DNA of 64,000 nucleotides, taken from contig NZ_CP042582.1 of assembly GCF_008728835.1 (NCBI RefSeq), forward strand, positions 496,001 to 560,000. Direction: 5' to 3'. A model generated the notes under the pieces. The model ran no database searches. It saw only the letters and a list, made by a program, of their open reading frames with translations, and was not told the DNA's origin. Source of the DNA: Hypericibacter adhaerens. Its GTDB lineage: Bacteria; Pseudomonadota; Alphaproteobacteria; Dongiales; Dongiaceae. Every line of letters begins with the position of its first letter. Position 1 is the stretch's first letter. Both the position numbers and the translations under genes were made by a program. Of this stretch, positions 25,691-63,859 are shown piece by piece.

Positions 25691-26563
25691 ATGGCCCGGG
25701 CCAGCGTGAAGCCGGCGGCGAAGTTCCTGGTGATCGACGGCTACAACAAGGCCGCGCGCGACGAGCTGCAGGCGGGCGGCGCCTCGGCCGCGGGCGACCT
25801 CTATGTCGCGATGCTGAAGAAATGCCTGCCCGAGGCGCAATGCGACGTGGTGCATCCGGCCGATCCCGGCACGAGCCTGCCCAAGGGGGCGGCCCTCGAG
25901 CAGTATGACGGCATCGCCTGGACCGGCTGCAGCCTCACCATCTATGACGACGATCCGCGCGTGACGCCGCAGATCGAGCTTGCCCGGGAGGCCTTTGCCT
26001 CGCGCGTGCCGAGCTTCGGCTCCTGCTGGGCGGCGCAGATCGCGGTGACGGCGGCGGGCGGCATCGTGCGCGCCAACCCGCGCGGCCGCGAGATGGGGAT
26101 CGCGCGCAAGATCGCGCTGACGCCCGAGGGCCGCGGCCATCCGCTCTATTTCGGCAAGAGCAACGTGTTCGACGCCTTCATCAGCCATGTGGACGAGATC
26201 ACCCATCTCCCGCCCGGCGCCGTGCTGCTGGCCTCGAACGCCTTCACCCACATCCAGGCCGTCGCCGTCACGCACAAGGGCGGCACCTTCTGGGGCCTGC
26301 AGTATCATCCCGAATACGACCTGCACGAGCTGGCGCGGCTCACCTGGTGCCGGCTCGAGAAGCTGCAGAAGCTGGGCTTCTTCAAGGACCGCGAGGCCGG
26401 CGAGAAATATGTCAACCTGCTCGAAACCCTGCACCAGGACCCGTCGCGCAAGGACGTCGCCTGGCTGCTCGGCATCGACGAGGACGTGACGAACGAGGAC
26501 ATCCGCTTGGCCGAGGTCCGCAACTGGATCGAACGGCTGGTGCTGCCGACGATGCGGCAGTAG
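25691..26563 (+). CDS. Class I glutamine amidotransferase-like protein
   Basis: Protein of 290 aa with a class I glutaminase fold. The nucleophile is C112 (PSFGSCWAAQIAV), with H206 and E208 in QYHPEYD completing the triad. No synthetase domain is attached, so it either works with a separate partner or acts as a stand-alone GMP synthase-like amidotransferase. A GGGAG site precedes ATG 25691. The C-terminal 80 residues extend beyond the glutaminase core. The partner and product are unknown. Confidence 0.85.
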   Translation: MARASVKPAAKFLVIDGYNKAARDELQAGGASAAGDLYVAMLKKCLPEAQCDVVHPADPGTSLPKGAALEQYDGIAWTGCSLTIYDDDPRVTPQIELAREAFASRVPSFGSCWAAQIAVTAAGGIVRANPRGREMGIARKIALTPEGRGHPLYFGKSNVFDAFISHVDEITHLPPGAVLLASNAFTHIQAVAVTHKGGTFWGLQYHPEYDLHELARLTWCRLEKLQKLGFFKDREAGEKYVNLLETLHQDPSRKDVAWLLGIDEDVTNEDIRLAEVRNWIERLVLPTMRQ

Positions 26564-26596
26564 ATCCTTTTACCGTCACCACCAGCCCACCCCTTC

Positions 26597-26629
26597 TGTC
26601 ATCGCCGGGCTTGACCCGGCGATCCAGGG
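26597..26629 (+). repeat. 33-bp palindrome, left end of GIY-YIG cassette
   Basis: Starts TGTCATCGCCGGGCTTGACC and ends GGCGATCCAGGG. It forms a hairpin CGCCGGG-CTTGA-CCCGGCG. It is the inverse of the copy at 26948-26980. Confidence 0.85.
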
Positions 26630-26644
26630 CAGAGGGCGCCGCGG

Positions 26645-26932
26645 TCAGACGACCTCTTCGTAGAGATCCCGCCATTGCGGGTTCGCTTTCTCGATCAGAT
26701 CGAGCTTCCAGGCTCGTGGCCATTTCTTGAGCGTCTTTTCACGCTGGATAGCCAGGTAGACGTCCGCGAACTCTTCGAAATGCACGAGGTTCTTGACCCC
26801 GTAGCGTTTGGTGAAGCCCTCAAGCGCGCCTTCCCGATGTTCATAGACGCGTCGCACCAGATTGTTCGTGACGCCGATATAGAGCGTGCCGTTGGGCTGG
26901 CTGGCGAGGAGATAGACGTAGCAGGTCCTCAT
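26645..26932 (-). CDS. GIY-YIG nuclease superfamily protein (UPF0213 type)
   Basis: Small protein of 95 aa with the GIY-YIG core: YVYLLAS (the GIY strand reads YVY), LYIGVTNN (YIG), then R28 in NNLVRRVYEHR and the C-terminal REKTLKKWPRAWKLDLI typical of the short UPF0213 group. The motif residues are intact. The biological role of this group is largely unknown. The gene is boxed by two 33-bp palindromes in inverse orientation at 26597-26629 and 26948-26980, leaving only 15 bases on each side, so the whole looks like a 384-bp cassette. Confidence 0.88.
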   Translation of the reverse strand: MRTCYVYLLASQPNGTLYIGVTNNLVRRVYEHREGALEGFTKRYGVKNLVHFEEFADVYLAIQREKTLKKWPRAWKLDLIEKANPQWRDLYEEVV

Positions 26933-26947
26933 GACGTGTGTCGGCGG

Positions 26948-26980
26948 CCCTGGATTGCCGGGTCAAGCCCGGCAATGACA
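26948..26980 (-). repeat. 33-bp palindrome, right end of GIY-YIG cassette
   Basis: Read on the minus strand it starts TGTCATTGCCGGGCTTGACC and ends GGCAATCCAGGG. It differs from the left copy at two places, C to T and G to A, which are paired in the hairpin, so the stem is preserved. Confidence 0.85.
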
Positions 26981-27013
26981 AGAGAGGGGGCGTGTTGATC
27001 GCCACTCTCCACA

Positions 27014-27682
27014 TCACAGCGGCGGCGAGAGCTCGCGGTCGGCGGCGGCGATTTCGGCGGCGGCCTGGCCCGCGGAGGGGCGCGACTTCACGCGGCTGTA
27101 CCAGGCGGCGAGGTTGGGGTGCTTGTCGAGCTTCGGGCCCTTGAGGCGCTGGACCCAGAGGATCGTCATGAAGAGCGCGATGTCGGCGACCGTGAAGCGT
27201 TCCCCGCAGAAATGATCCTGGCTGCCGAGACGGCGTGACAGCGTCTCATAGTGATCGCGCAACTGGATCTCGCCGCGATCGGCCTCGGCCATGCGCTGGC
27301 GCTGGCGGTCCGGGTCGGGATCGGGCGGCGAGGTGCGGGTCATCAGGCTGCGCAGCGGCGGCAGCAGGATCTCGTCCGCCGTGAGCTCGAGGAGCCGGCA
27401 GCGCGCACGATCCCGGGGCGAGGCCGGATAGAGCGGGGCTTGCGGATAGGCTTCCTCGAGATATTCGAAGATCACGGTCGAATCGAAGATCGTGAGGTCG
27501 CCGTCGATCAGCACCGGCACCTGGCCCTTGGGATTGGCCGCAAGCACCGCCGGATGCTTGGGCGAGTAGCCCTTCGCCTGGGTGAAGGGCACCATCTCGC
27601 GGTCGAAGGGCAGGCCCTTCTCGCGCAGCGCGATCTCGACCTTCCGCGAGAACAGGCTCAAGGGGCCCGAATAGAGCTTCAT
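27014..27682 (-). CDS. Glutathione S-transferase family protein
   Basis: Cytosolic GST of 222 aa. The N-terminal domain MKLYSGPLSLFSRKVEIAL carries S10 or S12 as likely catalytic residue, and NPKGQVPVLIDGDLTIFDSTVIFEYLEE contains the cis-Pro and Asp-Ser glutathione site. The C-terminal helical domain has FTVADIALFMTILW. An insert rich in Asp/Arg (SPPDPDPDRQRQRMAEADRG) lies between helices. It is a different lineage from the GSTs at 11969 and 45379. The substrate is unknown. Confidence 0.88.
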   Translation of the reverse strand: MKLYSGPLSLFSRKVEIALREKGLPFDREMVPFTQAKGYSPKHPAVLAANPKGQVPVLIDGDLTIFDSTVIFEYLEEAYPQAPLYPASPRDRARCRLLELTADEILLPPLRSLMTRTSPPDPDPDRQRQRMAEADRGEIQLRDHYETLSRRLGSQDHFCGERFTVADIALFMTILWVQRLKGPKLDKHPNLAAWYSRVKSRPSAGQAAAEIAAADRELSPPL

Positions 27683-50893: not shown

Positions 50894-50926
50894 TGTCATG
50901 CCCGGACTTGATCCGGGCATCCAGGG
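50894..50926 (+). repeat. 33-bp palindrome (family of the GIY-YIG cassette ends)
   Basis: TGTCATGCCCGGACTTGATC then CGGGCATCCAGGG. Hairpin GCCCGGA-CTTGA-TCCGGGC, same layout as 26597-26629 with compensated stem changes. Confidence 0.8.
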
Positions 50927-50951: not shown

Positions 50952-50984
50952 CCCTGGATCGCCGGATCAAGTCCGGCGATGACA
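50952..50984 (-). repeat. 33-bp palindrome, inverse copy
   Basis: Plus strand CCCTGGATCGCCGGATCAAG then TCCGGCGATGACA. With the copy at 50894 it forms an outward-facing pair only 25 bp apart. Confidence 0.8.
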
Positions 50985-51840: not shown

Positions 51841-51873
51841 TGTCATCGCCGGGCTTGACCCGGCGATCCAGGG
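51841..51873 (+). repeat. 33-bp palindrome, copy next to HisA-like gene
   Basis: TGTCATCGCCGGGCTTGACC then CGGCGATCCAGGG, identical to the left end of the GIY-YIG cassette. Confidence 0.85.
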
Positions 51874-63524: not shown

Positions 63525-63859
63525 GGGGGCCTTCAATTCCGGCCGGTTCGAGCCGTTGCCTTTGTCGTCATCCCCGCGAAAGCGGGGATCCAACGTCAAG
63601 CTTGCCGTGCTGGATCAGGATGGATCCCCGCTTTCGCGGGGAAGACAAAAGAGCATGCGGGCCCGCCCCTTCTGTAGGGGGTGATTTCGATAACGGGCCA
63701 TCCCGCGCCCTTAAAATCCCTTGCCCGCGCCCTTAATTGGCCTTAATGGCGCGTCATCTAGGCGCCCGTGGGACATATCCGCCGCTCCTGTTGCAGGCCC
63801 GTGACGATGGTGGTCGTCCGGCCGCAACCCTCGAGGACCGGCCTTTGGGGAGTTCATCG
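63525..63859. other. Intergenic region with hairpin pair and CCTTAA repeats
   Basis: No gene in 335 bases. It contains a palindrome pair (63567-63646) and three CCTTAA motifs at 63709, 63731 and 63741; two are inside the 13-bp direct repeat CCCGCGCCCTTAA (63702 and 63724), 22 bp apart, about two helical turns. This is probably the control region of the following secreted-protein gene. Confidence 0.45.
63567..63646. repeat. Inverted pair of GC palindromes
   Basis: GTCATCCCCGCGAAAGCGGG then GATCCA, and the inverse TGGATCCCCGCTTTCGCGGG then GAAGAC. A different palindrome family from those at 26597 and 50894, but with the same GTCAT...ATCCA frame. Confidence 0.75.

Follow-up and report, generated by a model that had tools for sequence, protein, structure and literature searches.

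The described repeats closest to those reported here are the CGTC REPs, which carry a C/TGTC tag, an 8-9 bp stem opening with A-T pairs, a 4-5 nt loop and mostly a CCA tail, and which are usually found as dimers in a single orientation (Di Nocera, De Gregorio and Rocco 2013, PMC3733652). Their counterparts are described as dRS3 of Neisseria and RPE-6 and RPE-4 of Rickettsia (PMC3733652). As far as the main text of that paper goes, the CGTC REPs are apparently without a dedicated transposase, the tyrosine transposase genes of CGTC-bearing species lack CGTC REP flanks, the few cases of other transposase genes near CGTC REPs are regarded as fortuitous, and the word 'GIY' has 0 occurrences (PMC3733652). 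The closest described partnership of repeat and enzyme is the REPIN-RAYT system, whose RAYT genes are described, in passages of PMC8049555, as single-copy and vertically inherited.

We have analysed a window of 64,000 nucleotides (positions 496001-560000 of the 5.87-Mb single-contig genome of Hypericibacter adhaerens) that contains a small GIY-YIG nuclease gene between two hairpins. On the one hand, the window hairpins are like the CGTC REPs of PMC3733652 in tag, stem, loop, tail and dimers. On the other hand, no dedicated transposase is described there, whereas here the hairpins enclose a nuclease gene. The locus shares with REPIN-RAYT the short palindromes in inverted pairs, the many copies and the gene bounded by the same palindromes, and its inheritance in Bradyrhizobium resembles the vertical inheritance of RAYTs. 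It differs in enzyme (HUH tyrosine transposase of the IS200/IS605 type there, GIY-YIG here), in tag (GTAG there, TGTC/CGTC here) and in copy number, since RAYTs are single-copy and the GIY-YIG gene is present in more than one copy in several genomes, up to 10. GIY-YIG enzymes are not known to have the HUH tyrosine strand-transfer chemistry of RAYTs. Because the cassette fails the defining HUH enzyme and GTAG tag, we did not file it as REPIN-RAYT; by analogy, it may work in the manner of REPIN-RAYT, but with a nuclease unrelated to RAYT. REP-targeting insertion sequences are alike in having a gene flanked by REP sequence. They insert into one REP, whereas the GIY-YIG cassette has its own complete, mirror-imaged hairpin at each end.

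Table 1. The cassette, further hairpins and the second gene copy. Coordinates are window positions, except for the second gene copy, which is given by contig.
Feature	Position	Strand	Remarks
Left CGTC-type hairpin TGTCATCGCCGGGCTTGACCCGGCGATCCA	26597-26626	+	30 nt; TGTC tag outward, CCA tail gene-facing; GGG next, up to 26629
GIY-YIG nuclease gene	26645-26932	-	95-aa ORF; active-site positions kept
Right CGTC-type hairpin TGTCATTGCCGGGCTTGACCCGGCAATCCA	26951-26980	-	30 nt; tag outward; one compensated base pair versus left end
Dimer half 1, 30-nt class	50894-50923	+	tag outward
Dimer half 2, 30-nt class	50955-50984	-	31-bp spacer; entire dimer folds into one long hairpin
Solo hairpin	51841-51870	+	30-nt sequence equal to left cassette end
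Dimer half 1, 27-nt class (CGTCATCCCCGCGAAAGCGGGGATCCA)	63566-63592	+	same core upstream of this genome's second GIY-YIG copy
Dimer half 2, 27-nt class	63621-63647	-	one stem base changed (one mismatch)
Second GIY-YIG copy (copy B, L260), own genome	C1:4961358-4961618		broken, one in-frame stop; 27-nt-core hairpin upstream

The features are listed in Table 1. The original prediction, a 95-codon GIY-YIG gene boxed by inverse palindromes, was borne out, as the ORF, the PF01541 match and the hairpin pair are all present. Its palindromes of 33 bp at 15-bp gaps hold if the adjoining GGG is counted in; otherwise each hairpin has 30 nt and lies 18 bp from the gene, with tags outward and CCA tails inward on both sides. 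An inverted-repeat search aligned arms at 26580-26630 and 26947-26997 with 82% complementarity. Each cassette hairpin, folded as single-stranded DNA, forms a 9-bp stem and a 5-nt loop, with fold z-scores of -4.68 and -4.57 and equally good shuffles in 0/200 and 1/200 cases. The two paired changes that had been noted between the ends do keep the hairpin pairing but amount to one base pair, C-G versus T-A. Selection on structure, which had been read from these changes, rests on that one base pair within the window; across the family the pairing is kept as well, though this was counted on 35 hairpins for which pairing had been a selection criterion. The cassette has as neighbours a 290-aa ORF at 25691-26563 (+), glutamine amidotransferase-like by eye only, and on the other side a 222-aa ORF at 27014-27682 (-), glutathione S-transferase-like by eye only.

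Further palindrome copies, predicted near 50894, 50952 and 51841, are present as one dimer and one solo hairpin, and a dimer of the 27-nt class, absent from the earlier list, lies near the end of the window. When the 15-nt core was searched with up to 3 mismatches, the window gave 17 matches, 3 of them exact, against 7.0 expected, and 0/100 shuffles reached 17. All seven window copies have a TGTC or CGTC tag and a CCA tail, and the 27-nt class, as read from the sequence, has an 8-bp stem and a 4-nt loop. With tag, stem, loop, tail and dimer habit all fitting, the window hairpins are CGTC-tagged REPs. A covariance model built from 35 CGTC hairpins found at least 148 matches in the whole genome (150 scored among 7,372 first-look candidates), both cassette ends included, and these fall into the 30-nt class of the cassette ends and the 27-nt class. 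Dimers in the scanned own-genome sequence were oriented outward in 13 cases, inward in 1 and directly in 0, and we took the outward dimers to be the HH type of PMC3733652.

Several observations concern the wider range of such repeats. Outside the tags of the 71 outward dimers in all sequence examined, the DNA is pyrimidine-rich and G-poor, the first base being C in 0.50, T in 0.30, A in 0.11 and G in 0.09. At four loci (L059, L073, L196 and L249) the hairpins are long or compound and have similar GTC...C ends, which suggests that the superfamily is wider than the strict hairpin pattern. A GIY-YIG relative of 59% identity lies within an array of dRS3-like CGTC hairpins in Neisseria gonorrhoeae (L263, a chromosome filed as plasmid), and the PLSDB table has no feature at this position. 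Another lies in Sinorhizobium meliloti (L267) amid repeats with CCTC-tagged hairpins, which in our view resemble RIME1. A third, on a Planktothrix agardhii plasmid (L268), lies amid GTCATTCTGA-type repeats between an MmeI-like restriction gene and the DISARM gene drmA.

The 95-aa protein matched only GIY-YIG (PF01541) in the Pfam scan, with 56.5 bits (E 3.4e-15; cut-off 22.6), and no NCBIfam model above its cut-off. In an alignment of 196 proteins (206 minus 10 that were short or broken), Y7, Y18, G20, R28, H32, E65, K69 and N84 were conserved in 97-100%, with values of 0.97 for Y7, 0.99 for Y18, 1.00 for R28, 0.99 for E65 and 0.99 for N84. Both tyrosines, the arginine, the glutamate and the asparagine are presumably the catalytic positions. 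Among 15 Bradyrhizobium genes the median dN/dS was 0.046 and the maximum 0.13 (98 of 105 pairs, with 7 saturated pairs left out and a stop in gene L024 skipped), and the window's gene (copy A) gave dN 0.081 and dS 0.63 against the sister genome. To judge from these rates, the protein is under purifying selection. Relatives were absent from 50,697 phage records.

The AlphaFold model of the protein has a mean pLDDT of 94.4. Its best match among solved folds was the UPF0213 protein 1zg2, the sole match below 0.001 (E 2.6e-4), and the UPF0213 protein 1ywl was fifth. By sequence, these same two UPF0213 members were the nearest solved structures, although weakly so (1ywl E 0.013, 1zg2 E 0.022). They are alike in being single domains of about 95 aa but differ in sequence, at 26-29% identity. 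Slx1 structures made up 8 of the 10 best fold matches, with E 0.0085-0.041 and TM-scores of 0.47-0.58 by query length. Slx1 is thus alike in fold but differs in that each chain of the solved entries, which hold Slx1 or a complex of Slx1 with Slx4, has 250-300 residues, and its E-values are weaker than 0.001. Since Slx1 cuts branched DNA, we infer that a preference for hairpins or cruciforms is plausible for the 95-aa protein.

The second gene copy of this genome has in the sister genome a counterpart without the stop, accompanied by similar 27-nt-type hairpins with some mismatches. Copies A and B each lie next to their own hairpin type, so that two gene copies stand beside two hairpin classes.

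We searched one genome per species across 84,980 species and used the best 80 of at least 548 relatives. Among the 79 with enough flank, the inverted repeat across the gene outscored every one of 50 shuffles in 69, and strict CGTC hairpins with tails inward were found upstream in 60, downstream in 62 and on both sides in 51. The opposite hairpin orientation was found upstream in 17/79 and downstream in 16/79, and flanking control DNA of these loci contained 27 hairpins in 311,285 bp. The best 80 carry record titles, which can be wrong for bins, of Alpha-, Beta-, Gamma- and Deltaproteobacteria as well as of Planctomycetota, Chloroflexi, Ignavibacteria, Cloacimonadota, Omnitrophota and several Patescibacteria.

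Because these 80 are the most similar relatives, 17 of them with Bradyrhizobium titles, an unbiased sample of the window's class, Alphaproteobacteria, was made (192 genomes from 168 genera). At E 1e-12 it gave 105 GIY-YIG matches in 57 genomes from 44 families, and 103 of the 105 loci had the at least 100 bp on both sides that made them usable. Strict hairpins were present on both sides at 25/103 loci, on one side at 26 and on neither at 52. The strict finder is blind to CCTC-tagged, bulged or compound hairpins (L059, L073, L249, L251, L267), so its counts are low, and a looser inverted-repeat test was added. By this test, 64/103 loci exceeded the 99th percentile of the scores of 251 control windows of gene size from the same loci; the same control windows contained 0 hairpin pairs and 15 cases of at least one hairpin. 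A hairpin pair or a strong inverted repeat was present at 68 loci and neither at 35. Against a between-locus control only 42/103 loci passed, because different cassettes share sequence. That GIY-YIG genes might usually lack such flanks had been named as the observation that would speak against the prediction; instead, some flank sign was present at 81/103 loci, although 22/103 had nothing by any test. Hairpin flanks of GIY-YIG genes are thus usual but not universal.

The ends of one cassette match each other and follow the protein. Both hairpins were present at 90 of 206 distinct loci, which gave 72 distinct pairs. The stem-loop cores were identical at both ends in 22/72 cassettes, against 20/5112 cross pairs, and mean end identity was 0.85 within cassettes versus 0.59 between them, a value as high being reached in 0/10000 permutations. 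On a tree of 69 proteins (55 rows scored), loop class changed 8 times, against a mean of 18.7 and a minimum of 12 in 200 shuffles; when shuffling was kept within alphas and within others, the mean was 17.6 and the minimum 13. Protein and hairpin distances were correlated with r 0.32 (maximum of 2000 permutations 0.14). Vertical descent in the hosts contributes to both the loop-class and the distance signals.

Gene and hairpins also co-occur among genomes. With at least 5 hairpins as threshold, the 192 genomes comprised 40 with both, 17 with the gene only, 9 with hairpins only and 126 with neither (odds ratio 33, p=3e-19, kinship uncorrected), and with at least 1 hairpin the counts were 45, 12, 20 and 115, respectively (p=2e-17, kinship uncorrected). 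These p-values are optimistic because the genomes are related, and the hairpin counts are floors because 38 candidates were scored per genome. Among the 12 gene-only genomes without any model match, the four whose own gene was inspected for flanks (G046, G070, G106 and G154, with loci L177, L254, L214 and L217) do have hairpins or strong repeats there, so the covariance model misses some. Hairpin-rich genomes (at least 5) that lack the gene at E 1e-12 number 9 of 49. When these nine were searched to E 0.01, four gave matches that were weak or broken (one at E 5e-11 that has two stops, the others at E 7e-8, 5e-7 and 0.006) and five gave none. Genomes with many palindromes and no GIY-YIG gene had been expected to count against the prediction, and these nine do weaken the link but do not overturn it. 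The nine hairpin-only genomes are the strongest fact against a strict dependence of the hairpins on the gene.

Co-occurrence would also be expected if the protein were a host repair nuclease that resolves REP hairpins or cruciforms, the repeats spreading by other means and the gene being kept because it limits damage. The nearest folds of known activity, those of the branched-DNA nuclease Slx1, and the purifying selection (median dN/dS 0.046) are in line with such a role. However, it leaves unexplained why hairpins surround the gene, why the two ends match and why hairpins travel with the gene, and the nine hairpin-rich genomes do without it. We regard this explanation as unlikely, but as a live rival.

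In different genera, the same cassette unit occupies different insertion sites. In a genome of the window's family (G015), a homologous cassette extends from hairpin to hairpin, and the BLAST match overruns the two outer ends by 7 and 9 bp. This cassette lies on another contig than the copy of the neighbour gene, and its protein match covers residues 38-94 only. The cassette match in another genome (G016), also on a different contig, falls 2 bp short of one outer end and extends 1 bp beyond the other; this copy has two stops, and its hairpins are too degenerate for the strict finder. In Azospirillum lipoferum the gene lies between sufB and sufC with a complete dimer on each side, and the cassette is absent there in 11 of the 12 Azospirillum records that cover the region, five of the 11 having been read. 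The junction at this site is not definable because the intergenic DNA is too divergent. In Shinella the gene is part of an insert of about 680 bp that is absent from two relatives. Thus, of the proposed comparison with empty sites in relatives, the absence at matching sites was found in Azospirillum and Shinella, but a base-exact junction was not: none of the relatives compared gave a base-exact empty site, as divergence blurs the junctions.

Some candidate empty sites were rejected. In Shinella H4-D48 and S. sumterensis the insert is missing, but about 115 bp are left where it would be, Sinorhizobium M103 carries an orthologue, and in WSC3-e versus HZN7 the segment is replaced instead. Six plasmid blocks of 50 kb each, from Rhizobium leguminosarum and R. 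ruizarguesonis, contained no hairpin of at least 8 pairs. No target-site duplication was detected at the tags of 71 dimers (z -0.8 to 1.2 for 2-9 bases) or at 13 dimers of the own genome (z -1.7 to 1.4).

When 17 elements were compared between the own and the sister genome, at least five dimers (559566, 567988, 4964702, 4967699 and 5010029), as judged by eye, had no counterpart in the aligned gap; others had one, and for five the matching position was not found. Movement of the gene itself seems to be rare. Copy A occupies the same position in the sister genome, where the site is about 1.9 kb longer, and in Bradyrhizobium the cassette is at one site in all 15 loci compared (of 17), one of which lacks the right flank.

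GIY-YIG is a classic homing-nuclease fold, and the cassette could accordingly be a free-standing homing gene for which existing REP dimers serve as landing sites; it would cut the dimers and be copied into them through recombination, without spreading them. This explanation, too, predicts co-occurrence and homology bounded by hairpins. It would agree with the A. lipoferum gene between two complete dimers and with a weak match of the protein to the NCBIfam group I intron endonuclease model (20.1 bits versus a cut-off of 56). However, the gene is mostly close to its hairpins, with median gaps of 30 and 26 bp as measured from the protein match, and the hairpins of the two ends agree with one another and with the protein tree. 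In addition, single-site inheritance under purifying selection, as at the 15 Bradyrhizobium loci, is untypical of homing genes. We consider a homing passenger unlikely but likewise a live rival, and we give it more credit than the repair role considered above.

A second nuclease family offers a parallel. DUF559 (PF04480), a weak relative of a restriction-enzyme family that was taken as a control for specificity, is present in 49/192 genomes of the class sample. Of the best 30 DUF559 loci, 28 had full flanks, and CGTC hairpins were present at these on both sides in 0, on one side in 2 and on none in 26. Palindromes of the type CCCTCTCCC...GGGAGAGGG...GTGAGGG, in contrast, were present on both sides in 12, on one side in 11 and on none in 5; the finder was written after the flanks had been seen and is thus fitted to them. 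In the opposite orientation it detected one side at 13/28 loci and both at 0/28, and its background was 2 matches in 147.6 kb. At the 103 GIY-YIG loci, this palindrome was found on both sides in 0, on one side in 3 and on none in 100. The GIY-YIG and DUF559 nuclease families thus each have their own palindrome. The genome of the window has DUF559 genes at C1:1415047, 803128, 3460468, 4931440 and 1511012, with flanks examined at the first (L332) only. We also considered DUF559 as the missing CGTC partner in the nine gene-less genomes and rejected it, since matches occur in six of the nine (one weak) yet the palindrome is of the other type. On a Sphingomonas plasmid (L331), a DUF559 gene lies between sufB and sufC, the same gap as that of the A. 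lipoferum GIY-YIG gene, and no strict CGTC hairpin was found at this locus.

The different palindrome of the DUF559 genes also bears on another explanation, in which the hairpins are terminators or mRNA stabilisers at a small gene and are unrelated to the nuclease activity. REPs are mostly intergenic and may act as RNA elements, as described in Di Nocera 2013 (PMC3733652). In two genomes, copy B (L260, L151) has an AT-rich, promoter-like stretch outside the upstream hairpin, as judged by eye, so that the hairpin would fall in the mRNA leader. However, the two terminator-like sites in 26500-27100 are neither of them at a hairpin, hairpins occur at both ends with tags outward and in 148 model matches genome-wide, four weak GIY-YIG-like matches in the same genome (L019-L022) are without hairpins, and DUF559 genes carry another palindrome type. 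We consider it very improbable that transcription alone accounts for the hairpins.

We favour the reading, at a probability of roughly 60%, that the cassette belongs, as the member carrying the gene, to a repeat-nuclease system; the hairpins would be cut by the nuclease, and the DNA bounded by them would be spread by host repair. The small Slx1-like GIY-YIG nuclease would recognise the CGTC-tagged hairpins on either side of its own gene, cutting or nicking them once they are extruded or single-stranded, for example on the lagging-strand template. To our knowledge, GIY-YIG enzymes hydrolyse DNA and have no strand-joining step, which leaves the transposition cycle incomplete. Host repair would then copy the hairpin-bounded DNA to new sites, giving short dimers and, rarely, the gene cassette. 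Cutting and spreading would together be the role that RAYT is thought to play for REPINs, with different chemistry. Hairpin recognition, cleavage and the copying or mobilisation driven by it are what we infer; what we observed are the layout and its recurrence, the matched ends, the co-occurrence, the differing sites among genera, the conserved active site and the purifying selection. The parallel with REP elements and RAYTs, which the original prediction had drawn for a GIY-YIG nuclease, is well supported by recurrence in many phyla, co-occurrence, matched ends and differing sites.

The repeats and the fold were already known, and the partnership of GIY-YIG with CGTC REPs was, provisionally, not found in print. 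Our literature search gave no report linking GIY-YIG or DUF559 to such palindromes, a provisional result since preprints and most subscription papers lay outside it. With its arrangement recurring in many kinds of bacteria, the GIY-YIG nuclease is a strong candidate for the missing partner of the CGTC REPs. More broadly, bacteria may hold several independent repeat-nuclease partnerships with unrelated enzymes and their own palindromes: the known HUH RAYT with GTAG REPs, GIY-YIG with CGTC REPs, and DUF559 with CCCTC-GTGAGGG. In that case no transposase would be needed for short palindromes to spread, a plain hydrolytic nuclease together with host repair being sufficient, and repeats such as dRS3 would be products of GIY-YIG systems. 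This broader picture is tentative, and we hold it with a little less than even confidence.

What moves the CGTC REPs is left open in the text of PMC3733652, and GIY-YIG provides a specific, widespread and testable candidate. If it is the right one, a dedicated nuclease exists for repeats in many phyla, perhaps including dRS3, RPE-4 and RPE-6, and an enzyme can spread short repeats through bacteria even though it lacks strand-joining chemistry. The parallel with DUF559 suggests that this may be a general rule.
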